NCBI RefSeq assembly: GCF_019443285.1
Contig: NZ_CP080327.1
Span: 868,001 to 932,000, forward strand
DNA length: 64,000 bases
Source: Aquisediminimonas profunda
GTDB taxonomy: Bacteria > Pseudomonadota > Alphaproteobacteria > Sphingomonadales > Sphingomonadaceae
Reading direction: 5' to 3'
In this document: piece after piece, positions 19,774-32,516 of the stretch
How the letters are laid out: each line of letters starts with the position of its first letter
Numbering within the stretch: position 1 is the first letter of the stretch
Notes under the pieces: generated by a model
Seen by the model: the letters and a program-made list of their open reading frames with translations, nothing else
Databases searched by the model: none
Told to the model about the DNA's origin: nothing
Made by a program: the position numbers and the translations under genes

Positions 19774-19847
19774 GCGGGCGTAGCTCAATGGCAGAGCAGA
19801 AGCTTCCCAAGCTTACGACGAGGGTTCGATTCCCTTCGCCCGCTCCA
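19774..19847 (+). tRNA. tRNA-Gly (anticodon CCC)
   Basis: A 74-nt cloverleaf: acceptor GCGGGCG/CGCCCGC, D arm GCTC...GAGC, anticodon loop TTCCCAA with anticodon CCC, T arm around TTCGATT, and encoded CCA at 19845–19847. The lowest pair of the anticodon stem (27·43) is a G·A mismatch; other pairs are intact. It would read GGG glycine codons. It ends 91 bp before the stop of the outer-membrane protein gene on the opposite strand. Confidence 0.96.
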
Positions 19848-19938: not shown

Positions 19939-22587
19939 TCAGAAGTCGAGCCGATAGCCCGCGCTCAGGACAATGCCGCGTTCAGTGCTGATCGAATCGA
20001 CCCCCGGCGATATCTGGTGCTGCCGCGACAGGTTGGCGCCGATTTCGATTTCGATTTCCGATTGACGCATCGGATAATAATTAACCCGCAACGTGGGCTG
20101 AAATTGGCGAAACGTGCTTGCCGTCAGCTTGTCACTCCGAAAGCCATAACGCGCACGCGGGCTCAGGCGGAACTTGCTGGTTATCGGGATACGGGCATTG
20201 ATGTCGGCCGTATAGGTCCGCGACCGTTCATTGTTGGCGTAGCGGGCGCTCAGAATGTAGATATCGTTGGAAAAGACCATGCCACTGCCGACCAGCTGGG
20301 CCCCGTAGTAGAACTCGTTGCCGATGGCAGGCTGCGCAGGATTGAGCGGCGGATTGGCAGTGGGGATCACTCTTGTGGACCCTAGATAGCCGCCCGTATT
20401 CGTCAGGGTGAAGTCCAGATTGCCCTGGAGTTTCGCGCTGATTGGTCGTGAATAGGACATGGTCAGCGATTTGGTGACCTGGGTATTGTCGCTGGCGAGC
20501 TGATAGATCTGTGAATCCGAAAGGCTTGCGCGCAGGTCGGCAAGCGTGCGAATCATCGTCGTGCCGCCTGGCAGTATCTGTGCAAACGTGCCGTTGAGCG
20601 CGGAATTTGTCGTCAGGAGCGGCGACTGGCGATAGTCGGCCGTGAGGCTGAAGCTAGACTGGTCCTTCAGGGAATAGTTGAGGGTAACCAGCCCAAGGTT
20701 CACCTTCTTGAAGTGAATGTCATAGTCCAGGATCGTATAGGCATTGAACCGGTTGTTCAGATAACGCATTTCATTGCCAACCGATCGCCTGTCGATGAGG
20801 CCATGGCTGCGCTGGTCGAACCAGTAGAATGTGGTCTGGAACTTGTCCTTCTTCGAACCGATATCAGCGGACACGCCATAGAAGAATCGATCATTCTGGA
20901 TATGGGTAATGCGCGATGAGGACACCGGGAATCCGGCGGCCACGTTCAGCCTCAACTTCCTCTTCACCTGCCAGCCGAGCAGGGCACCGTCGAACCGGCC
21001 GAGAATGCCCGAACCATTGCGGGTCTGCCGACCGATCCGCCCTGAAATGTTGAGGGTCGAATCCGCGAAATCGAAATAGAGCGCACTGATCGATTTGACG
21101 TGATTGCGCCGCATGGTCTGGATGCCCGTGAAGGGGTCTGTGTGCAGGCTCGCCGGACGGAAGTCTCGCGTATAGGAACCGGCCGCACGCAACAGCAACT
21201 GGTTGCGGTCGCTGCCGCCCGTCAACGAAATGTCTGCGTTGCTCAGCAGTTGGTTGAGATTGACCGAATTGTCGACTTCAGCCGTCGGATCGACGCGCGT
21301 CGCATCAAGAAATTTCGATGAGCTCTGGTCCCGGAAATAGAATTGGGAAAAGCTGCCCCGAGCGCCCCAGCGCCATGATTTTGCTGCTTCGCCTGCTCCG
21401 CTGCGTCCACTCGCCGCGCGCAGTTCTGTTGTCGATTGCGTGTCAGGGCTCAGCAGTGCAGCGAGCCTTTGACGCACGCGATCCGCAGCCTCGCCCGTCG
21501 GATAACGCCTCAGATACTCCTCATATTCGGCCTTGGCGTGGGCATTCTGCCCTTTGCGCTCGCGTGTGAGGCCAAGAAGTTCCCGTGCCCGCGGGCTGTG
21601 CTCATTTTCCGGAAGCGTCAGAGCCAAAGTCAGGATCTGGATGGCACGATCATTTTCGCCGGCCTTGAGCGCGGCTTCTGCGTCGGCTTCTGCCTTTGCG
21701 GCGGCCATTTGCTGTTCGTTCGACAGCGGTGCGGCGGGCGCGACGGACGTCGCCGACGGGGCGGCGCCTGTGCCGACATCGATCCGCGAGGCGACCCCCT
21801 GCGCCCGCTCCTGCGCAGTCACTTTGACGACCCAGGCTTCCGGAAACAGTTTCGCCAGCTTTGCACTGGCGGCTTCAGCCGCTTCGCGCGTTTCGAAGAA
21901 GCCGACGCGCAAGCGATGCCAGGTCTGGCCGTCGCGCTCGAACCGCGTTTCATAGGTGGTCTGCCCTGCCAAGGCTTCGGCCCGGGCTGCCGGCAAATCG
22001 CCAATGTCCTTGGGTTGGGACAGGACGTTTACGACGTAAAGGCCGCTCGGGATGGGGATCGCTGGCTTTGCCTGTTCGGCGGAGGGGTTGGTGCCCGATG
22101 GAGGCGGCGCCGCTGCGATATCGCCACCAATTGCCGAGGCCGAGCAGGACGAGGTGTCCCCGGCCTCGGACACGGTGACAATGACTGTCTGGGGCGTTTT
22201 CCCGGCGGCCACGTCAAACCGGACATCGCGATTGAAAAAGAGCGAGAGCACCGGGCCTGATGCGTTATCCCCCTCATACTGGATCGATCTGAGAGCGGGC
22301 ACACCCGTTGGCGCCCGAAGGGACTCGCGGGACAGCGACGTGCCATCGAGCGTCTTGACGCGAATGTGCAGTTCGCGACCTTCCGTTTGCGGGAAGAAAC
22401 TCAGCACCTGCACCCGGACATTGAATGCAATGGAAATGGTAGAGCAAGTGCCCACGCTTTGCGCAGTCACGTCCGAGAGAACGCGATCGCTCACAGACTG
22501 CGCATAAATGTCTTCAGTCGGACAGAGGCTGCCCGCGATTGCAGCCGTGAAAAGGAGGGAGGCAGATTTACCCCTGTGCAATGTCAT
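19939..22587 (-). CDS. Outer-membrane beta-barrel protein with SPOR and TPR domains
   Basis: 882 residues. A signal peptide (to about residue 30) is followed by a beta-rich N-terminal domain, a SPOR-like domain (about 183–260: SGLYVVNVLSQP...WHRLRVGFFETREAAEAASAKL), TPR-like helices (about 290–390) and a C-terminal barrel (about 410–882) of alternating amphipathic strands ending in the outer-membrane-type aromatic terminus RLDF. SPOR domains bind denuded peptidoglycan, so the protein could tie an outer-membrane channel to the cell wall. It starts 18 bp after the 31-heme cytochrome stop, so it is co-transcribed and is a plausible porin partner for it. Confidence 0.8.
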   Translation of the reverse strand: MTLHRGKSASLLFTAAIAGSLCPTEDIYAQSVSDRVLSDVTAQSVGTCSTISIAFNVRVQVLSFFPQTEGRELHIRVKTLDGTSLSRESLRAPTGVPALRSIQYEGDNASGPVLSLFFNRDVRFDVAAGKTPQTVIVTVSEAGDTSSCSASAIGGDIAAAPPPSGTNPSAEQAKPAIPIPSGLYVVNVLSQPKDIGDLPAARAEALAGQTTYETRFERDGQTWHRLRVGFFETREAAEAASAKLAKLFPEAWVVKVTAQERAQGVASRIDVGTGAAPSATSVAPAAPLSNEQQMAAAKAEADAEAALKAGENDRAIQILTLALTLPENEHSPRARELLGLTRERKGQNAHAKAEYEEYLRRYPTGEAADRVRQRLAALLSPDTQSTTELRAASGRSGAGEAAKSWRWGARGSFSQFYFRDQSSSKFLDATRVDPTAEVDNSVNLNQLLSNADISLTGGSDRNQLLLRAAGSYTRDFRPASLHTDPFTGIQTMRRNHVKSISALYFDFADSTLNISGRIGRQTRNGSGILGRFDGALLGWQVKRKLRLNVAAGFPVSSSRITHIQNDRFFYGVSADIGSKKDKFQTTFYWFDQRSHGLIDRRSVGNEMRYLNNRFNAYTILDYDIHFKKVNLGLVTLNYSLKDQSSFSLTADYRQSPLLTTNSALNGTFAQILPGGTTMIRTLADLRASLSDSQIYQLASDNTQVTKSLTMSYSRPISAKLQGNLDFTLTNTGGYLGSTRVIPTANPPLNPAQPAIGNEFYYGAQLVGSGMVFSNDIYILSARYANNERSRTYTADINARIPITSKFRLSPRARYGFRSDKLTASTFRQFQPTLRVNYYPMRQSEIEIEIGANLSRQHQISPGVDSISTERGIVLSAGYRLDF

Positions 22588-22605
22588 GCCGATGTCCTTG
22601 CTGGA

Positions 22606-25023
22606 TCAGTCGAAACCACTCGCACTGACGCGGTGGTGGCCGGTACGCCGTTCCTTGATCGTTGTGAGTGAGCTGTTGGTGTAGATGTGGCATGAGCCCG
22701 TGCAGTCGCGCAGCTCCGACACGGTGTAGTTCACGCGCGTCGGGGACTCGTATTTTGGATGCGAACCGGCCCTGAAGTCCCCAGCATGGCACGCGGCGCA
22801 ATTGGGCGCATAGGACGCATATCTATAGGGCACCGTTTGCGAATTGGTTGTGTGACAGTCGAGGCAGGCCAATTGGCGGGCATGCGTGCCGGGATACGCC
22901 GGAGAGCTGTGGATATAGTTGGTTGTCGGAATCCACGCCGTCACCCTGTGGCAATTTTCGCAACCGATTGTCGTCTGGAAATGCGTCGGGGACTTGCCGG
23001 TGGCCTTGGTGCCATTGTGGCATGTGCTGCAAGCCCCTGTCACATTGGCATGGTCAAATGTCGCGGGCAGCCAGGCAATCGTCTTGTGGCAATCGCCGCA
23101 ATCGCCAGTGGTTGGAATATGCGTGGCCGGCTTTCCGGTTGCCTTGGTGCCATTGTGGCAGCCGGAGCAGGTTCCAAGTGCTTGGGTGTGATCCATGCGG
23201 ACGGTTGTCCAGGCCGTGGTCACATGGCAGCTGTCGCAACTGTCAGTCGTTGAGATATGGTTTGCGGGTTTGCCGGGAACCTTGGTCCCGTTGTGGCAAC
23301 TCACACAGGTTCCGTTGGCATCGACATGATTGAACGTTGCGGGGATCCAGGCTGTCGGCCTGTGGCAGTCCTCGCAGGTGTTCGTGGTCGACAAGTGCGT
23401 GGCACTCTTGCCTGTGGCCTTGGTTCCATTGTGGCACGTGTAGCAGGTTCCCGTGATGCCACTGTGGTTGAAGGTGGCGGGCACCCATGCGGTTGTGCGA
23501 TGGCAGTCTTCGCAAGTGTTGCTCGTTGCGAGGTGGGTCGCGCTCTTGCCTGTGGCTTTGGTGCCATTGTGGCAGCTGTAGCAGGTTCCCGTGATACCGC
23601 TGTGGTTGAAGGTGGCGGGCACCCATGCGGTTGTGCGATGGCAGTCTTCGCAGGTGTTGCTCGTTGCGAGGTGGGTCGCGCTCTTGCCCGTGGCCTTGGT
23701 GCCATTGTGACAGCTGAAGCAGGTACCGGTGATGCCACTGTGGTTAAAGGTCGCGGGGATCCAGCCGCTGGTCTTGTGGCAGTCCTCGCAGGTATTGCTG
23801 GTTGAGAGGTGCGTGGCACTCTTGCCGGTGGCCTTGGTGCCGTTGTGACAACTGAAGCACGTCCCGGTGATGCCGCTGTGGTTGAAGGTGGCAGGAATCC
23901 ATGCGGTCGTGCGATGGCAGTCTTCGCAGGTGTTGCTCGTTGCGAGGTGGGTCGCGCTCTTGCCCGTGGCCTTGGTTCCATTGTGGCAGCTAAAGCATGT
24001 TCCGGTGATGCCACTATGGTTGAAGGTGGCGGGTATCCAGGCTGCGGTTTTGTGGCAGTCCTCGCAGGTATTGCTGGTTGAAAGGTGCGTGGAGCTCTTG
24101 CCCGTGGCCTTGGTTCCATTGTGGCAGCTGAAGCAGGTGCCGGTGATGCCACTGTGGTTGAACGTTGCGGGTATCCAGCCTGTGTTTTTGTGGCAATCCT
24201 CGCACGTGTTGCTCGTCGTCAGATGAGTCGCACTCTTGCCGGTGGCCTTGGTGCCATTGTGGCAGCTGAAGCATGTTCCTGTGACGCCGCTATGATTGAA
24301 GGTTGCAGGGGTCCAGCCACTGGTCTTGTGGCAGTCCTCGCAGGTATTGCTGGTGGCCAGGTGCGTGGAGCTCTTGCCCGCGGCCTTCGTGCCGTTGTGG
24401 CAGCTGAAGCAGGTGCCCGTTATGCCCGCATGTGAAAACCGGGCCCCGGCCCAGCTGTTTGTTGTGGTGTGGCAATCCTCGCAGACATTGGATGACGGAA
24501 GGTGGTTCGCCGACTTGCCCGTGGCCTTGGTGCCGTTGTGACAGCTGAAACAGGATCCGGTCACATTTGAATGGTCAAATCGCGCGCCCGCGAATGAATT
24601 GGTGTTGTGGCAGTCCTGGCATTCGTTGCTCGATTGGGGGTGGTTTGCCGTCTTGCCAGTGGCTTTGATGCCGTTGTGGCACGTCACGCAGCTTTGCGTT
24701 GCGCCTGTGTGATCGAACCTGTTGATCGTCCATTGGCGGGTTGTGTGGCAGCTGTCGCATTCCGCCTGCGTAACGATATGGTTTGCCGGCTTGCCATTGG
24801 TGCGCACATCATTGTGGCATCCTGAACAGGTCTTGGGCGTACCCTTGAAGACTGCGGCTTTGTGGCATGTCTCGCAGGCAACGGCCACATGGGCTCCCGT
24901 TAGCGGAAACCCGGTCGAAAAATGATCGAAGGAGGATTTGCGCGCTGCCGACAGGGGGTTGCCTGCGACGATCGCCAAAGCGAACACCACAGTCAGGAGT
25001 GCAGCAAGCCATCTCCCGATCAT
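22606..25023 (-). CDS. Multiheme c-type cytochrome with 31 CXXCH motifs and one CX3CH
   Basis: 805 residues from ATG 25023, with a signal peptide/anchor (LLTVVFALAIVAGNPLSA). Counting the translation gives 31 CXXCH heme-attachment motifs plus a terminal CX3CH (CTGSCH). Most of the protein is a tandem 46-residue repeat with two hemes per unit (CFSCHNGTK... and CEDCHR...) and a conserved FNHSG whose His may be a distal heme ligand. It would be exported and matured in the periplasm as a long heme wire. No lipobox is visible. The porin-like gene follows, suggesting an outer-membrane electron conduit. Function is inferred; family is the cytochrome c3/doubled-CXXCH type. Confidence 0.9.
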   Translation of the reverse strand: MIGRWLAALLTVVFALAIVAGNPLSAARKSSFDHFSTGFPLTGAHVAVACETCHKAAVFKGTPKTCSGCHNDVRTNGKPANHIVTQAECDSCHTTRQWTINRFDHTGATQSCVTCHNGIKATGKTANHPQSSNECQDCHNTNSFAGARFDHSNVTGSCFSCHNGTKATGKSANHLPSSNVCEDCHTTTNSWAGARFSHAGITGTCFSCHNGTKAAGKSSTHLATSNTCEDCHKTSGWTPATFNHSGVTGTCFSCHNGTKATGKSATHLTTSNTCEDCHKNTGWIPATFNHSGITGTCFSCHNGTKATGKSSTHLSTSNTCEDCHKTAAWIPATFNHSGITGTCFSCHNGTKATGKSATHLATSNTCEDCHRTTAWIPATFNHSGITGTCFSCHNGTKATGKSATHLSTSNTCEDCHKTSGWIPATFNHSGITGTCFSCHNGTKATGKSATHLATSNTCEDCHRTTAWVPATFNHSGITGTCYSCHNGTKATGKSATHLATSNTCEDCHRTTAWVPATFNHSGITGTCYTCHNGTKATGKSATHLSTTNTCEDCHRPTAWIPATFNHVDANGTCVSCHNGTKVPGKPANHISTTDSCDSCHVTTAWTTVRMDHTQALGTCSGCHNGTKATGKPATHIPTTGDCGDCHKTIAWLPATFDHANVTGACSTCHNGTKATGKSPTHFQTTIGCENCHRVTAWIPTTNYIHSSPAYPGTHARQLACLDCHTTNSQTVPYRYASYAPNCAACHAGDFRAGSHPKYESPTRVNYTVSELRDCTGSCHIYTNSSLTTIKERRTGHHRVSASGFD
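23365..24468. repeat. Tandem array of about eight 138-bp units within the multiheme cytochrome gene
   Basis: The sequence GCAGTC(C/T)TCGCA recurs at strict 138-bp spacing (for example 23503, 23641, 24331). Each unit encodes 46 residues with two CXXCH motifs. Neighbouring units differ by scattered, mostly synonymous substitutions, and more diverged units continue on both sides. Confidence 0.9.
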
Positions 25024-25269
25024 GCGAACCCCGACTCCCTTTTTCCCGCCTGGACCCGGATCTTGGCGTCTCGACAGACACCGCAACCCAAAGACCATAT
25101 CGTCAGCCTCAAATCCTCTCATCGACCCAAGGACTGAAACAGCTTATTATCGGGAATGGTTAATATAATCCGCGATCGAAAGTTAGGGCGGTTTATCCCG
25201 CTGTTGAATCAACCTATCGCGCAAAAGAATGGATTGTCAGCTTCGTGACAGTTTCGTTCATCTCAAAGT

Positions 25270-25310
25270 AAAAATACAGTATTACTTATGTTCACCCATA
25301 ATTATACTGT
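25270..25310 (-). terminator. AT-rich hairpin with T-run after the 21-heme cytochrome gene
   Basis: Read on the minus strand, ACAGTAT (25304–25310) pairs exactly with ATACTGT (25276–25282), with further pairing of ATTATG/CATAAG-like inner arms, and is followed by A and five Ts (25270–25274). It begins 7 bp after the stop at 25317. It could end or attenuate transcription of the cytochrome b–21-heme pair, leaving the next two genes to their own promoter in 25024–25269. Confidence 0.55.
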
Positions 25311-25316
25311 GATTTC

Positions 25317-26879
25317 CTATCGACGCATTGTTATCTGGTTGAAATTTGTAGTCACATGACACTGTTCACAATTGTCTCCGAAGCTTCCCTTGTGAATATC
25401 GTCCTGCTTATGGCAGGCGACGCAATCCTTTTGCAGCTTTGCCGGATCTTCGGCTTTTGCATGGCAGGCCGAACAGATCAGTCCCTTGTGTTGGCCGGTC
25501 AGCGGAAATTGTGTCGCACCATCATGATCGAAACTCCACAGCTTCCAGCCGTTGACCGTGTGGCAGCGCGCACACTTTGACGGAGTGCCCAGGGCACCTG
25601 CGTGGTGATCGTCTGCATGGCAGGATTCACAGGTTACACCCTTGGCGGCGAAACTCTTGTCCGCATGGCATTGTGTGCATGCGACGGCCGCATGTTTGCC
25701 CAGCAACGGGAAGCGGGTCAGGGCATGATCGAAGGAGACCTTTTCCTTCCAGCCGATCGCATTGTGGCAACTCTCGCACGCTGCGCCGAACTTGCCTTTG
25801 TGGACATCGTCATCCGCGTGGCAGCTCGCACAGCTTACCGACAGTTTGACGACGCGTGGCGGTTGCTTGTGACATGCGCCGCAGGCAAGCGGCTCGTGCG
25901 CGCCGCGCAGGGCAAAACGGGTCATCGTGTTGTGATCGAAGCTTGCCTGCTTCCAGTCGCGGCTGTTGTGGCAGCGCGCGCACTCGGTGCCATTGCTGCC
26001 TTTGTGGACATCATCCTTGATGTGGCAGGCCACACAGGCCCTTGAAGGCTTCCGGATCGTGTTGCCGACGCCATGGCATGAAGCACACCCGGTTGACGCG
26101 TGCCGACCGATCAGGGGAAAGCCGGTATCCGTGTTGTGATCGAACGATGTTGCCTTCCACCCTGCCGGCGAATGGCAGCTGGCACAATTTGTTCCCCGAG
26201 AGCCGTTGTGCACATCCTTTTTTGCGTGGCAGGCGATGCATTGTGAGGGCGTCCCGGCCCAGCGTTGCCCGGCATGGCAGGAAAGGCAGGCGGCTGTCCT
26301 GTGGCCGCCGGTCAGTGCATAGCCCGTCGACCGGTGATCGAACGGCAAGGGTTGCTTCCAGCTGTTGACGTCATGACAGGTCTGGCAGGCCTTCCCGAGG
26401 CGGCCCAGATGCGGGTCCTTCTTCGCATGGCAGGTTGCGCAGGCCGTCGAGACCCCTCGGAAATGGCCGCCATTGCCGTGACAGCCCGCGCAGGTCGCCT
26501 TGGCGTGGCCGCCGAGCAGGGGGTAGTCTGTCAGCTGGTGGTTGAAGCCGGCGCGCGTGAACCGCACAATGGGGAAGTTGCGACCCTGGTGTTCGCTGTG
26601 GCACGTCTTGCAGGCTTGTGATCGCGCGGTCGATTTTCCGTGGAATCCGGCTCCCCCTCTTATGTCAGCGCCGATGCCGGTATGGCAGGCAAGACATTTT
26701 CCGTTCTGCGCCTGGCGCGAAAAGGATTCATGGCAAGAGGCGCAATTGGCTTCGAGCTTTGCATGGGCCCTGCTCAGCGGACCGGGCGTGATCAGGCGTT
26801 CCATGATGCCTTGGGCAAAGGCGAGGTGCGCAGCAAAGGCCAGCCAGGCAATCGCAAGAAGGCGAACCCACCGCGCCAT
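25317..26879 (-). CDS. Multiheme c-type cytochrome with 21 CXXCH motifs
   Basis: 520 residues from ATG 26879, with a cleavable signal peptide (WVRLLAIAWLAFAAHLAFAQG). The translation contains 21 CXXCH motifs arranged in loosely repeated blocks (…CVACHxKDDVHKGSxGTxCxxCH…SFDH). Each block carries additional histidines suited to bis-His ligation, as in cytochrome c7/c3-type modules. It is predicted to be periplasmic. The start overlaps the stop of the b-type cytochrome gene by 1 bp, so electron transfer from that membrane protein to this one is likely. I know no named orthologue. Confidence 0.88.
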   Translation of the reverse strand: MARWVRLLAIAWLAFAAHLAFAQGIMERLITPGPLSRAHAKLEANCASCHESFSRQAQNGKCLACHTGIGADIRGGAGFHGKSTARSQACKTCHSEHQGRNFPIVRFTRAGFNHQLTDYPLLGGHAKATCAGCHGNGGHFRGVSTACATCHAKKDPHLGRLGKACQTCHDVNSWKQPLPFDHRSTGYALTGGHRTAACLSCHAGQRWAGTPSQCIACHAKKDVHNGSRGTNCASCHSPAGWKATSFDHNTDTGFPLIGRHASTGCASCHGVGNTIRKPSRACVACHIKDDVHKGSNGTECARCHNSRDWKQASFDHNTMTRFALRGAHEPLACGACHKQPPRVVKLSVSCASCHADDDVHKGKFGAACESCHNAIGWKEKVSFDHALTRFPLLGKHAAVACTQCHADKSFAAKGVTCESCHADDHHAGALGTPSKCARCHTVNGWKLWSFDHDGATQFPLTGQHKGLICSACHAKAEDPAKLQKDCVACHKQDDIHKGSFGDNCEQCHVTTNFNQITMRR

Positions 26880-27766
26880 CAATACATATGCACCGCGACA
26901 ATGTGGATGATCGCTGTCACGACAAGGATGAAAAAGAGCGGCAGGTGAAACAGGTGCCAGAGCCTGAACATCCGATCGTAAAAGGCGAATTCAGCGGCGT
27001 GCCGGACGGCATCGAGATAATCTGATGCAAGGGCAACCAGTCGCTTTTTGTCATGATGGGCGCGGGCATCCCTGGTCATTGCAGCCGGTGCTGTCGCGGC
27101 GAGATCGCTGCGCAGCTGTCGCATGGCAAGCCGGGTGTTGAGGCCAAGGCTTACAACCGACCAGGCGCTTGTCCAGAAGCCGGCCCCGGCAACGACGGTT
27201 CGTTGTTCAAAGGGTTCGAGACGCGTCCGGATCAGAATCCCGTCGTTTCCAAGTCCCGCCAGACTGTCCAGCAGTTCATGCATCTCTTTCAGCAGAGCCC
27301 GCACTTCAAGCTTTCTGCCCGAATAGCCGCGATGGATTCGCGAATAGAAATACCGCCCGATGAGGCCGCTTCCGGAAACGATCAGCATCGCGCCCATCGC
27401 AACGGCACTATTGAGTGCTCCCCAGGAAAAGCGCGCGTGGTAGAGGATCGCGACCGGGCCAATCAGGCCGAGGAACATGTGAAAGCGGAACCAGAAGCCG
27501 ACACTGCCGATGCCGGCGAGCATGCGGATGCGCTTGCGGAATGGGTAGACGAGCAGGAGCAGCATCATGCTGCCGCCGAAAATGCCGAGCCAGTAACCAA
27601 TGCCGCTTTCGGGGTTGATCCAGCGATTGTCCCTGTGGAGCCACCCATAGGCAAGCAAGGCCGAGACAGAAAGGCCGACAAGTAAAGACAGAGCATTCTC
27701 GAGTTGGGCAGGCTTCAGGAACGGCTTGGCAGTCTTCAAATCTGTTTCGGCAATGGCTTGCGTCAT
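26879..27766 (-). CDS. Di-heme b-type membrane cytochrome
   Basis: 295 residues with about five hydrophobic segments. Two histidine pairs with 14-residue spacing sit in membrane helices: H96/H110 (FRFHMFLG...LYHARF) and H274/H288 (LFHLPLFF...IIHIVA), the pattern of bis-His b-heme sites as in ferric-reductase-like and cytochrome b561-like proteins. A soluble loop (about 145–255) is inserted between them. GTG 27802 is an alternative start. As first gene of the minus-strand group, it probably moves electrons across the inner membrane to the periplasmic cytochromes. Confidence 0.75.
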   Translation of the reverse strand: MTQAIAETDLKTAKPFLKPAQLENALSLLVGLSVSALLAYGWLHRDNRWINPESGIGYWLGIFGGSMMLLLLVYPFRKRIRMLAGIGSVGFWFRFHMFLGLIGPVAILYHARFSWGALNSAVAMGAMLIVSGSGLIGRYFYSRIHRGYSGRKLEVRALLKEMHELLDSLAGLGNDGILIRTRLEPFEQRTVVAGAGFWTSAWSVVSLGLNTRLAMRQLRSDLAATAPAAMTRDARAHHDKKRLVALASDYLDAVRHAAEFAFYDRMFRLWHLFHLPLFFILVVTAIIHIVAVHMY

Positions 27767-27995
27767 CCAGCTTTCCCATCCACTCACATTGTCCGTCGGC
27801 ACTTTTCTCTAGCGTGGCTTCATTAGCGAAAAGTTCACATCTGGCCGCGAAACAACGGCTCGTTTCGGCCTGTTTTCCCACCATAGTACCGGCGAACAGG
27901 CCGTAAATGCAGCTTGGTGTCAGCTTCACTGATTGCAGTGGGCCAATCCCAAGCCATAGGGCGCACCGAATGAACGATATGAGCAGGGGTCAACC

Positions 27996-29084
27996 ATGTT
28001 AATTCCCATGATCTTGACAGGGCTGGCGGGACTCGCCCTGGGCATCGCCATCATGCGGCTTGTGCAGGCGCGCGGGCAGGATGCCAGCAGCGCAGCAACA
28101 TCTTCCGAGGTCGAACAGGCCACGGAACCGGCTGCAGTGCCAAAAGAGCCGAAGGCCGGCATTATATCGCCGCGGCTGGCCTTTGCAGGGGCAGGCGTCC
28201 TCGTATTGGCGGCAGGCGGCATCTATGCATATCGCAGCCTTGAGGGCCCGGCGGAAACCCCGCTTGCGCTGCCTGCGGGCGCCGCTGCAGTCGGCCAGCC
28301 CGATGCAAAACTTGACGATGTCGACACGATGATCAGCCGCCTGGAGGCGCGCCTTCAGAAGAATCCGAATGATGGAGAAGGCTTCCGGATGCTTGGCTGG
28401 TCATTCCAGAGTACGGGCAAGCCAGCCGAAGCCGCTCTTGCCTATGCCAAGGCCGTCAAGCTGCTGCCGGCACGCGCCGATGTACAGGCGGGATATGCTG
28501 AGGCGCTGGTGTCGGTTGCCGGTGATACCGTGACGCCTGAAGCAAAAGGCCATATCGACACGGCGTTGCGGCTTGACCCCAAAGAGCCGCGCGCCCGTTT
28601 TCTTGCATCGCTCTACAAGGCCCAGAATGGTCAGGAACGCGCAGCGCTTGATGAATGGATTGCGCTGTCCAACAGCGCGTCCGCCGACGTGCCCTGGCAG
28701 GTCGATCTGCGCCAGCGCATTGAAAAACTGGCCGCGAAACTCGGGGTCAACGTCGCCGGGCGGCTTGTTTCGGCTCCGTCTGCGTCCCTGACGCCGGGAA
28801 TGGCGCCATTGTCCGGACCAAATCCCGCGCAGGTGGCGGCGGCTTCGTCGCTTCCCCTGACCGACCAGCAGTCGATGATCGACGGGATGGTCAATGGCCT
28901 GGCGGCAAAGCTCAAGGCAAACCCCAACGATGCCGAAGGCTGGCTGAAGCTCATTCGCTCGCGCGTCGTGCTGAAGGACATGCCCCAGGCCAAGGCTGAC
29001 CTTGCTACTGCGCGCAAGACGTTCGCATCCCAACCGGCCAAGCTGGCTCAGGTCAACGCCTTGGCGAGCGAGCTGGGCCTCTAG
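27996..29084 (+). CDS. CcmI/CycH-like TPR protein
   Basis: 362 residues. Two N-terminal membrane segments (about 3–20 and 62–80) flank a charged loop, and the remainder is TPR-like (NPNDGEGFRMLGWSFQSTGKPAEAALAYAKAVKLLP, partly quoted, and a second block near residue 300). This is the layout of CcmI/CycH/NrfG, which deliver apocytochromes to the heme ligation machinery. No ccmABCDEFGH genes are nearby. AGGGG precedes ATG 27996. Position opposite two giant cytochromes suggests a dedicated maturation factor for them. Confidence 0.75.
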   Translation: MLIPMILTGLAGLALGIAIMRLVQARGQDASSAATSSEVEQATEPAAVPKEPKAGIISPRLAFAGAGVLVLAAGGIYAYRSLEGPAETPLALPAGAAAVGQPDAKLDDVDTMISRLEARLQKNPNDGEGFRMLGWSFQSTGKPAEAALAYAKAVKLLPARADVQAGYAEALVSVAGDTVTPEAKGHIDTALRLDPKEPRARFLASLYKAQNGQERAALDEWIALSNSASADVPWQVDLRQRIEKLAAKLGVNVAGRLVSAPSASLTPGMAPLSGPNPAQVAAASSLPLTDQQSMIDGMVNGLAAKLKANPNDAEGWLKLIRSRVVLKDMPQAKADLATARKTFASQPAKLAQVNALASELGL

Positions 29085-29091
29085 CATACAA

Positions 29092-30402
29092 ATGCATTTC
29101 AATCCGCTTCTGCTTGCCTATGCGGTTCCGCTCGTTGGGCTCTGGCTGACGTTTTACATCGTGTCGCGTCGGCGGACGAAGCGCGCACTTGCGGTGATGG
29201 AAGAGGCCCGGATCGCAGGCCTGACCGAGCCGGCCTCCCTTCACCCCGTCATTGATCCGGCCCTTTGTCTTGGCTGCGCGGCATGCGTCAAAGCCTGCCC
29301 CGAAAAGTCGATACTCGGGATCATCGACGGCAAGGCCAAGCTTATCGAACCCTCGCATTGTGTTGGTCATGGCGCCTGCGCCACCTCTTGTCCGACCGAT
29401 GCCATTTCGCTCGTGTTCGGCACGGAAACGCGCGGCGTCGACATCCCCCATGTATCACCGAAGTTCGAAACGAACGTGCCCGGCCTGTTCATTGCTGGCG
29501 AACTGGGCGGCATGGGACTGATCCGCAACGCCATTGAACAGGGCCGCCAAGCGATCCGGCACATCGCCGCCAAGGCCCGCGCGATTGAGGCCGGGCCCGA
29601 GGTTCTTGATCTTCTGATTGTCGGCGCCGGCCCGGCGGGCATTTCCGCGGCTCTGGGCGCGACAGAGCAGAAGCTGAAATTCCGGATTGTGGAGCAGGAC
29701 ACGCTCGGGGGAACCGTTGCGCATTTCCCGCGTGGAAAGCTTGTGATGACTGCTCCGGCGGAATTGCCTCTGGTCGGCAAGGTCAAGTTCGGAGAAATCA
29801 GCAAGGAAAAGCTGCTTGAGTTCTGGGAGGGCGTTGTTGCGCAAACGGGGCTGCGCATTGATTTTGAGGAACGGGTGGATTCGGTTTCCCGCGAGAATGG
29901 CCTTTTCATCATAAGCACGAACAGGTCTGAATTTCGCGCCAAGACCGTCCTGCTTGCCATCGGGCGAAGAGGCACGCCACGCACCCTCGGCGTTCCCGGT
30001 GAAGACAGCACGAAGGTCGTCTATCGCCTTGTTGATCCCCAGCAATATGGCGGCCAGCATGTCCTTGTCGTCGGTGGCGGAGACAGCGCGCTCGAAGCGG
30101 CTGCCTCGATCTCGGACGAGGCGGGAACGCATGTGACACTGGCCTATCGCGGCAAGGCTTTTGACCGCGCTCGTCAAAAGAACCGCGACCGCGTGAACGC
30201 TGCCGCTTCCGCCGGCAGAATCTCTGTTCTTCTCGAGTCAGATGTGGAGCGCATTGCCATGCGCACAGTAGCGATCCGGACGCCGCAGGGTGTTCTCGAA
30301 ATTGCCAATGACGCCGTGATTGTGTGTGCAGGTGGCGTCCTGCCCACCGAATTTCTGAAGCGCACCGGCATCGAGGTCGAAACGAAATTCGGAACCGTTT
30401 GA
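29092..30402 (+). CDS. Membrane-anchored ferredoxin–FAD/NAD(P) oxidoreductase
   Basis: 436 residues. An N-terminal membrane helix (about 3–20) is followed by two ferredoxin-type cluster motifs: CLGCAACVKACP (complete) and CVGHGACATSCP, in which a His replaces the second Cys. A thioredoxin-reductase-like module follows with GAGPAGISAALG (FAD site) and VVGGGDSALEAAAS (NAD(P) site). No CxxC redox disulfide is present in the flavin module. It starts 7 bp after the CcmI-like gene. It is a good candidate for feeding cytosolic electrons to the b-type cytochrome encoded opposite. Confidence 0.85.
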   Translation: MHFNPLLLAYAVPLVGLWLTFYIVSRRRTKRALAVMEEARIAGLTEPASLHPVIDPALCLGCAACVKACPEKSILGIIDGKAKLIEPSHCVGHGACATSCPTDAISLVFGTETRGVDIPHVSPKFETNVPGLFIAGELGGMGLIRNAIEQGRQAIRHIAAKARAIEAGPEVLDLLIVGAGPAGISAALGATEQKLKFRIVEQDTLGGTVAHFPRGKLVMTAPAELPLVGKVKFGEISKEKLLEFWEGVVAQTGLRIDFEERVDSVSRENGLFIISTNRSEFRAKTVLLAIGRRGTPRTLGVPGEDSTKVVYRLVDPQQYGGQHVLVVGGGDSALEAAASISDEAGTHVTLAYRGKAFDRARQKNRDRVNAAASAGRISVLLESDVERIAMRTVAIRTPQGVLEIANDAVIVCAGGVLPTEFLKRTGIEVETKFGTV

Positions 30403-30510
30403 CGTCACTGCGTCATCGCCGGATACAATCCACCGTCCCGCAATGATTCTGCCAATTGTCAGGATGGGTGCAGCTTCGTCAGGCAGCGCAGTGTCGAACG
30501 AAGGGCCACA

Positions 30511-31167
30511 ATGCGGATTCTCCTAGTTGAAGATGACTCGGAAATATCCCGACGACTGATGTCGCGGCTTGCTGCTGCCGGCTTTGTTGTCGAACATGCG
30601 CCGGATGCGGAAACAGCGCTGGACTGGCCCGATCCCCAAAAGTTCACGACCCTGGTTGTGGATCTCGGCCTTCCCGGCATGAGTGGCATTGAACTGATTT
30701 CCAAGTGGCGGGAACGAGGCCTCACCAATCCGATCCTGATCCTGAGTGCACGCGGGAGCTGGCAGGACAAGGTCGAAGGATTGAATGCGGGCGGCGACGA
30801 TTTTGTCGTCAAGCCGGTTCGGGCGGAGGAATTGATCGCGCGTCTGCATGCGCTCTCGAGGCGGGCCATGGGCCATACCGGCGCACGGATCGTGGCGGGC
30901 GGGATAACGCTTGATCCCGCAGCAAAGTCTGTCTGGAAGGGCGACGAACTGCTCGATTTGACGCAGATGGAATATCGGCTGTTGCGGATGTTCATGCTGC
31001 GCGCGGGCCACATCATTGCACAACCGGACATTCTGGACCATCTTTATCCCATGGATAGCGAGCGAGACCTGAACACGATTGAGGTCCATGTCGGGCGGCT
31101 GCGGCGCAAGATCGGTAAATCTGCGATCACGACAATTCGCGGTCTGGGATATCGATTCGAGCGGTGA
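30511..31167 (+). CDS. OmpR/PhoB-family response regulator
   Basis: 218 residues. Receiver domain with acidic residues E7/D8/D9, phosphoacceptor D51 (LVVDLGLPGMSG) and the conserved Lys in VVKPVRAEEL. A winged-helix output domain (about 125–218) ends in the family motif TIRGLGYRFE. The stop overlaps the GTG of the sensor kinase (GTGA), so they form one operon. Its position after the redox genes suggests it controls the divergent cytochrome operons. Confidence 0.93.
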   Translation: MRILLVEDDSEISRRLMSRLAAAGFVVEHAPDAETALDWPDPQKFTTLVVDLGLPGMSGIELISKWRERGLTNPILILSARGSWQDKVEGLNAGGDDFVVKPVRAEELIARLHALSRRAMGHTGARIVAGGITLDPAAKSVWKGDELLDLTQMEYRLLRMFMLRAGHIIAQPDILDHLYPMDSERDLNTIEVHVGRLRRKIGKSAITTIRGLGYRFER

Positions 31168-32516
31168 CCGGCTTTTTCAACAGCCTGAAATTTCGTTTCA
31201 TTGCCAGCACGTTCGCCTGGATTGCCATAGGCCTCATTCTGACCGGCCTGGTCGTCTCCGCGCTCTTCAGGGCCTATGTGACGCAAGGTTTTCATGATGA
31301 GCTGCAGGTTCATATTGATGAACTCGCGGCTCTGGTGCGCGTTGATGCACAGGGTGATCCTGTCATGCTGCGGCGCTTGTCCGATCCCCGCTATATTCCG
31401 CCCGGATCGGGCTATTACTGGCAGATCGAGCGGCTTGGCCACCGGACCCTTCGGTCTCCGTCATTGGCGGGCCGATCCTTGTCCGGCACACTGGCGCGGA
31501 GCCCGAAGTTCGCCTGGGCGCAGGTGCAGGGCCCGTCTGGCGAAACACTCGAATATGGCATGACGCTTGCCGTAAAGGGCGGCGGCCCCCCGCTGCACTT
31601 GTCGATCGCGTCGGACGTCCGGCTGCTCGATGACGTGCTTGCAGAATTCGAAAGGCCACTTGCCGGGCTCCTTATCGCCTTTGCCTTGGTGGTGCTGACG
31701 ACAGGCGCTGTACAGATTGCCTTTGGCCTGCGCCCGCTGCGGCGCATGTCAGAAGCGATTGCGGATGTTCGGGCGGGACGGACAACAGTGATGCAGGGTG
31801 ACTATCCGACCGAAGTCGCGCCTCTGGTGAGTGACCTGAACGATCTGTTGGAAGTCAATTCGGCGATCGTCAAAAAGGCCCGGGTGCAGGCTGGCAATCT
31901 GGCCCATGGGCTCAGGACACCGCTGACCATCATCCTCGATGAGGCAGAGCGCCTTGCCGCAGAAGGGCATGTGGACAGTGCGGCCACTCTGATCCGCGAG
32001 AGCGAACGGATGAAGCGTCAGATCGAGCACCACCTTGCCCGCGCCCGTGCGGCGTCTGTGGATCGCACCCCCGGCCAGGTCGCGTCGCTGCGCGAAACGA
32101 TCACGCCTGTGCTTGCGGCCATGTCCCGACTGCACCGGGATCGCGATATCGCGTTCTGTTGCGGAGACTTCCCGGACCAGACTGTCCAGATCGACGCCAC
32201 GGACCTGGCAGAGATCCTTTCCAACCTGCTTGACAATGCAGCCAAATGGGCACGGTCGCGCGTGATCGCAAGTTGGGAACGCGAGGGGACGATGGTCCGG
32301 CTGCTGGTCGATGATGACGGCCCCGGCATCGATCCCGCGCTTTACGAACAGGCTTTTACCGTCGGAGAGCAGCTGACCGACAGTGCCACAGGTTCTGGCC
32401 TCGGCCTTGCCATCGTGCGCGACCTTGTCGAGCTGTACGACGGGACCGTGACACTCGGCAAATCCCCCCTTGGCGGGCTGCAGGTCGCCGTGAGGTTGAA
32501 CACAGCGGGACGGTGA
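31164..32516 (+). CDS. Sensor histidine kinase
   Basis: 450 residues from GTG 31164. Two membrane helices (about 12–35 and 165–187) bracket a periplasmic sensor region of about 130 residues. A HAMP domain, a HisKA domain with H248 (NLAHGLRTPLTIIL) and an HATPase with LLDNAAKWA, DDDGPGID and GSGLGLAIVRDL follow. It resembles the PhoQ/QseC-like class and should phosphorylate the overlapping OmpR-type regulator. The periplasmic domain lacks recognisable heme (CXXCH) or cysteine motifs, so a redox signal cannot be read from the sequence. Confidence 0.92.
   Translation: MTGFFNSLKFRFIASTFAWIAIGLILTGLVVSALFRAYVTQGFHDELQVHIDELAALVRVDAQGDPVMLRRLSDPRYIPPGSGYYWQIERLGHRTLRSPSLAGRSLSGTLARSPKFAWAQVQGPSGETLEYGMTLAVKGGGPPLHLSIASDVRLLDDVLAEFERPLAGLLIAFALVVLTTGAVQIAFGLRPLRRMSEAIADVRAGRTTVMQGDYPTEVAPLVSDLNDLLEVNSAIVKKARVQAGNLAHGLRTPLTIILDEAERLAAEGHVDSAATLIRESERMKRQIEHHLARARAASVDRTPGQVASLRETITPVLAAMSRLHRDRDIAFCCGDFPDQTVQIDATDLAEILSNLLDNAAKWARSRVIASWEREGTMVRLLVDDDGPGIDPALYEQAFTVGEQLTDSATGSGLGLAIVRDLVELYDGTVTLGKSPLGGLQVAVRLNTAGR

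Follow-up and report, generated by a model that had tools for sequence, protein, structure and literature searches.

Which route could electrons take between the cytosol and the surface of Aquisediminimonas profunda, and in which direction would they travel? The question is raised by eight adjacent genes at positions 19939-32516 of a 64,000-nucleotide stretch of the genome (the window; contig NZ_CP080327.1, 868,001 to 932,000), which a first-pass annotation had read as an electron conduit with a layout unlike those of Mtr, Pio or Cyc2. An open reading frame check of the window confirmed all eight genes in their places. The layout is indeed none of those three, but it is not new: He et al. 2017 describe the same cluster as the PCC3 class of porin-cytochrome conduits (PMC5566968), and we have dropped the claim of novelty. 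We think it likely that the locus is a complete PCC3-type conduit joining the pool of NAD(P)H in the cytosol to the cell surface. A membrane-anchored iron-sulfur (FeS) flavoprotein encoded in it proves to be a constant part of PCC3 loci, as constant as the b cytochrome, and is absent from the published text description as far as that text goes.

A probable conduit of the PCC3 class

PCC3 was defined by a porin, two giant multiheme cytochromes and an inner-membrane protein of ~300 amino acids bearing an SGxxG motif and two WX3HX13H motifs; the published heme numbers are a median of 34 for the outer cytochrome and 21 for the inner one (PMC5566968), and the class has since been discussed in two further papers (PMC10734462, PMC12442390). 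In the window, genes for a barrel, two large multiheme cytochromes and such an inner-membrane protein are clustered in the conserved order. The outer cytochrome (22606..25023, minus strand; CXXCH count and Pfam) is built of two-heme repeats, and its open reading frame (22606-25122) contains exactly 31 CXXCH motifs and 65 cysteines. Its start is probably the ATG at 25023 rather than the end of the frame at 25122, which would provide a type-I signal peptide; no lipobox was found in the protein. Within the gene lies a tandem array of a 138-bp unit (23330..24426, minus strand; 7.9 copies), each unit encoding 46 amino acids and two hemes. The inner cytochrome (25317..26882, minus strand; identified in the same way) consists of seven c7-like three-heme modules, with exactly 21 CXXCH motifs and 42 cysteines. 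Such counts are not the product of chance, since nearly every cysteine is used in a motif (65 for 31 and 42 for 21), and both Pfam and NCBIfam return c7/c3-type matches among the cytochromes. The proteins are also dense in heme, at 25 (521/21) and 26 (805/31) residues per heme within a class range of 22-39. Of 65 complete inner cytochromes among relatives, 63 carry 18, 21 or 24 hemes; outer cytochromes range from 9 to 67, with an odd number in 36 of 39. These quantised numbers fit three-heme modules in the former and two-heme modules in the latter, and the 138-bp unit displays the two-heme module directly. The first-pass annotation had placed both proteins in the periplasm, which may not hold for both: the PCC3 description calls the second multiheme extracellular (PMC5566968).

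The inner-membrane protein is a di-heme b cytochrome (26879..27802, minus strand; alignment and motif check). It displays W104x3H108x13H122, S145GxxG149 and W282x3H286x13H300, and histidines 108, 122, 157, 283, 286 and 300 are invariant in the alignment, in keeping with its earlier reading as a bis-His cytochrome. Both WX3HX13H motifs and SGxxG are present in this protein and in 71 of 72 relatives. No Pfam family matched it. Four transmembrane segments are clear by hydropathy, and the predicted helices are compatible with five, the number in PCC3 inner-membrane proteins.

At the other end of the minus-strand group lies the porin (19939..22587, minus strand), in which Pfam recognizes the SPOR and TPR domains already noted in the first pass. 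A signal peptide is followed by an AMIN-like beta domain (37-141), SPOR (~184-266), TPR (290-379) and the barrel (406-880). The AlphaFold model (pLDDT 64) agrees with the proposed outer-membrane barrel, with ~22 barrel strands following the beta, SPOR and TPR domains, and Foldseek returned barrel matches for it. The SPOR domain, found in 9 of 13 PCC3 porins checked, should tie the barrel to peptidoglycan.

The window thus shares with published PCC3 loci the barrel, the outer multiheme, the 21-heme inner multiheme, the ~300-residue b cytochrome with its signature, and the gene order. It differs in having CcmI, response regulator and histidine kinase genes in addition, and the published text, in the part available to us, does not list the FeS-flavoprotein, a Sel1-ankyrin protein or the SPOR domain among the components. 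Published members were recovered in our homology scan, namely Amphritea atlantica (L094; 63 + 21 hemes) and Bradyrhizobium STM 3843 (L086). Other conduits resemble the locus less. MtrCAB, MtoAB and PioAB are functional analogs that also place a barrel and multihemes across the outer membrane, but the locus lacks a decaheme MtrA-type unit and CymA and has, on the inner side, a b cytochrome together with a flavoprotein. We found no MtrA-type decaheme next to an MtrB barrel in the locus, where the cytochromes carry 21 and 31 hemes; the 31-heme protein scored 144 bits against the DmsE-type decaheme model, under the cut-off of 192, the 21-heme protein did not match that model, and the barrel profile gave no MtrB-type match among solved structures. 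Cyc2, a monoheme cytochrome fused to a barrel, is ruled out by a barrel without CXXCH. PCC4 and the porin-less multiheme loci mentioned by He et al. (PMC5566968) have five-helix b cytochromes and share with the window the HX13H pairs in that protein, an extra FeS redox protein and multihemes; their b cytochrome and multiheme families, however, differ from those of the window.

The host itself carries a second locus, of this porin-less kind (L043, G000:C1:2814001-2828000), which encodes an FHA-domain 10-heme protein, a related b cytochrome, a CcmI-like protein and an 826-residue FAD/cNMP/FeS protein. Relatives of its b cytochrome are common in the family, as weak matches in many genomes.

A constant, permuted FeS-flavoprotein

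The flavoprotein (29092..30402, plus strand, with its start corrected to the ATG at 29092; Pfam, NCBIfam and alignment) has an N-terminal transmembrane helix, two [4Fe-4S] motifs and a FAD/NAD(P) domain related to thioredoxin reductase (TrxR) and YpdA. Pfam finds the Pyr_redox and Fer4 domains, in agreement with the first-pass reading, and the FAD GxGxxG and NAD(P) GGGDSA motifs are conserved in the alignment. Since the hydrophobic helix is followed by an Arg/Lys run, the positive-inside rule would place the redox domain in the cytosol. The closest proteins to the FAD/NAD(P) part are YpdA/Bdr and TrxR-like ferredoxin-NADP reductases (7a7b, E 4e-36), from which it differs in its fusion to two FeS clusters and a transmembrane helix and in a circular permutation. 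Here the core is preceded by the segment (FETNVPGIFIAGE...; residues 120-172; 29446..29604, plus strand) with which those enzymes close their FAD domain, so that the linear FAD - NAD(P) - FAD order of YpdA and thioredoxin reductase is not kept. The paralog encoded at the second host locus, by contrast, has its core at residues 16-276 and this segment in the normal place behind it, at 285-325. The domain is thus thioredoxin-reductase-like but circularly permuted, and the altered order recurs in each of the 87 relatives in which both parts occur. A second peculiarity is the second cluster motif, CxxHxxCxxxC (alignment residues 91-101; 29359..29391, plus strand), which has His in place of the second Cys in all 86 relatives that show the motif. 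As the His motif formed part of one search pattern, we checked for ascertainment: 43 relatives do not match that exact pattern, and the His is kept in 86/86 showing the motif. The flavoproteins of a Gallionellaceae genome (L114) and of Emticicia (L157) have Ser for the second Cys in the first motif (CxGSxxCxxxC). In another genome (G304, L158:5908-8241), this permuted FAD domain is part of a 777-residue protein together with a polytopic NapH-like iron-sulfur membrane domain, so the module extends beyond PCC3.

How constant is this protein? Of the 298 genomes searched in the host's order, only a dozen had close homologs of the b cytochrome, and nearly every such locus with enough flank had the flavoprotein, inner multiheme, outer multiheme and barrel as neighbors in the same order. 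A scan with the flavoprotein alignment over one genome per species (84,980 species) returned more than 570 relatives, of which the best 80 came from Gamma- and Alphaproteobacteria, Gallionellaceae, Nitrospira, Nitrospina and one Omnitrophota bin. About 90 relatives were compared for locus content. Where more than 8 kb was available on both sides, the b cytochrome and a multiheme were present in 24 of 24 loci and the barrel in 21 of 24. To avoid selection through the flavoprotein, each of the barrel, flavoprotein and b cytochrome profiles was also searched on its own against one set of 398 Pseudomonadota genomes, and all three matched the same six genomes, from six genera; the flavoprotein profile gave one extra weak match, a different fused protein. 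The hypergeometric probability of such coincidence is 1.9e-13, or 1.2e-11 without the query genome, for genomes that are related to one another. Apparent splits of PCC3 in two genomes (G338 and G645) were dismissed, as their contigs end inside the repetitive outer multiheme gene. Some operons are wholly co-directional, in the order flavoprotein, ankyrin protein, b cytochrome, two multihemes, barrel. Plasmid pEMTOL02 of Emticicia oligotrophica (Bacteroidota; L157) has one co-directional run of b cytochrome, flavoprotein, 23-heme and 40-heme cytochromes and a barrel-like protein; this operon also includes CcsA, and its barrel is not recognizable by the proteobacterial profile. In the second host locus, too, the FAD/FeS gene abuts that for the related b cytochrome. 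Gene set, gene order, co-occurrence and motifs are thereby established, and the co-occurrence proposed as a check of the first-pass annotation holds. The suggested route from cytosol to outer membrane is upheld in its conserved parts, their order and their identical presence and absence over the 398 genomes; transfer to or from the outside is something we only infer.

Proposed direction and destination of the electrons

We propose that NAD(P)H would reduce the FAD and then the two [4Fe-4S] clusters of the flavoprotein, from which electrons would pass to the two b hemes and so across the inner membrane. The 21-heme cytochrome, spanning the periplasm, would receive them and hand them to the 31-heme cytochrome, located in or beyond the ~22-strand barrel held to peptidoglycan by SPOR. 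CcmI would aid the maturation of the numerous hemes, and the two-component system would govern expression of the locus. Formation of a complex, the role of the flavoprotein as donor or acceptor, the location of the outer cytochrome and the direction of flow are each inferred elements of this scheme. A path from cytosolic NAD(P)H over FAD to two b hemes across a membrane is functionally analogous to NOX and ferric reductases, to which He et al. likened the HX13H pairs (PMC5566968); here, however, the flavoprotein is separate, permuted and equipped with FeS clusters, and the b cytochrome matched none of the ferric reductase family models.

On our best reading, the cytosolic end of the line is pyridine nucleotide rather than, or besides, quinone, and quinone coupling as modeled by He et al. 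could coexist with it. The stronger proposal, that PCC3 is a quinone-independent line in which the permuted FAD/2[4Fe-4S] reductase feeds the b cytochrome and, through more than 50 hemes, the outside, is tentative, and we would sooner expect it to need amendment than to stand as worded; our literature search found no description of such coupling for extracellular electron transfer in Gram-negative bacteria. As to direction, we lean slightly towards outward flow in this host, as an overflow valve or for mineral or humic reduction. Either makes more sense than lithotrophic uptake because the host is, by its genes, a photoheterotroph: its genome has reaction-center L/M genes (PF00124, two matches, G000:C1:1067002-1068665), and no RuBisCO was found in it. 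It also encodes the type II secretion system secretin GspD.

Several points weigh against this picture. A quinone-reactive b cytochrome would be compatible with the present data, the flavoprotein may serve another partner, and our search of the literature turned up no PCC3 that had been tested by biochemistry or genetics. A Foldseek search with the b cytochrome model gave no significant match (top, cytochrome b561 at E 1.8), and the VIA-align rows (b561, Z 6.8) are helical-bundle noise; both were set aside. In Sideroxydans lithotrophicus ES-1, both PCC3 clusters drop on Fe(II) relative to thiosulfate (PMC8788666), a fall that speaks against Fe(II) oxidation and not against a conduit.

That same fall bears on the published alternative, in which an extracellular donor such as Fe(II), reduced minerals or Mn feeds the multihemes, a quinone-reactive b cytochrome and finally the quinone pool (PMC5566968), with the flavoprotein as an auxiliary or regulatory protein. 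Many carriers do belong to lithotrophic groups (Gallionellaceae, Thiodiazotropha, Nitrospina), and Sideroxydans CL21 expresses PCC3 throughout growth, regardless of iron-oxidizing activity (PMC12442390). This view sits poorly with an NAD(P)H-type flavoprotein that is no less constant than the b cytochrome, and the host lacks a RuBisCO with which to use incoming electrons; we regard the view as unlikely here, though the strongest of the rivals. Less probable again is a periplasmic electron store, in which the multihemes act as a capacitor without outside contact and the barrel is structural. The capacitor idea has been raised before (PMC10734462), and a type-I signal peptide without lipobox and heme numbers varying from 9 to 67 would suit it, but 21 of the 24 loci with long flanks include the barrel, and the genomes with a barrel are just those with the other parts. 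Least probable is uptake to NAD(P)+ that bypasses quinone, with low-potential electrons from FeS minerals, Fe(0), reduced partners or a cathode, which has the same anatomy and would suit autotrophic carriers in need of NADPH but would be uphill with Fe(II) or most donors found in nature, in a host without RuBisCO.

Neighboring genes, host and distribution

The divergent intergenic region (27803..27995) contains a single weak promoter-like site, which is on the minus strand. Beyond it, on the plus strand, lie the genes for a CcmI/CycH-like cytochrome c maturation TPR protein (27996..29084; PF23914), an OmpR-family response regulator (30511..31167) and a sensor histidine kinase with HAMP, HisKA and HATPase domains (31164..32516); Pfam agrees with the first-pass reading of all three. 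The regulator holds the same place in other sphingomonad PCC3 loci. The kinase adjoins it in the window only, and the related sphingomonad loci inspected keep the regulator without an adjacent same-strand kinase. In about 69 of 90 loci (e.g. L033-L040, L059, L086, L094) the flavoprotein gene is followed by one for a secreted Sel1-ankyrin-repeat protein; the sphingomonad clade lacks it and has the CcmI-type protein and OmpR-type regulator in that place. A tRNA-Gly (ccc) gene at 19774-19847 adjoins the end of the locus and is a possible insertion point; an empty-site comparison beside it, aimed at a recent insertion, found the flanking genes not syntenic in a genome of the same genus (G059) or in two other relatives.

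The occurrence of such a locus in a sphingomonad had been called unexpected, which is not wholly so: an Erythrobacter already stands in the PCC3 list of He et al., and carriage by Sphingomonadales was thus known (PMC5566968). In the flavoprotein tree, the window falls within a sphingomonad/Erythrobacteraceae clade (support 100/98), two other Sphingomonadales families lie elsewhere, among Gammaproteobacteria, and the one further genome of the host's genus that was examined has no PCC3. The simplest account is a history that is patchy and in part horizontal, with which the Emticicia plasmid copy agrees.

The PCC3 class and its layout were known already. What is new, relative to the published text as far as it was available, is the constant flavoprotein, its permutation with the His cluster motif, and the exchange of Sel1-ankyrin for CcmI and regulator neighbors. 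The term FAD is absent from the main text of He et al. (PMC5566968), and a literature search found no account of a PCC3 flavoprotein, of the flanking ES-1 genes or of a permuted TrxR-ferredoxin protein; the gene may be drawn in the figures or supplement of He et al. Some multiheme proteins of PCC3 are among the largest on record, and the class is found in relatives of iron oxidizers, sulfur symbionts, methanotrophs and nitrite oxidizers and, here, in a photoheterotroph. From the constant flavoprotein one would predict coupling that does not depend on quinone, and its presence could account for the lack of PCC3 induction by Fe(II). A pyridine-nucleotide flavoprotein as a constant component revises the working model of PCC3, and as an enzyme with a soluble domain it is open to purification and assay.

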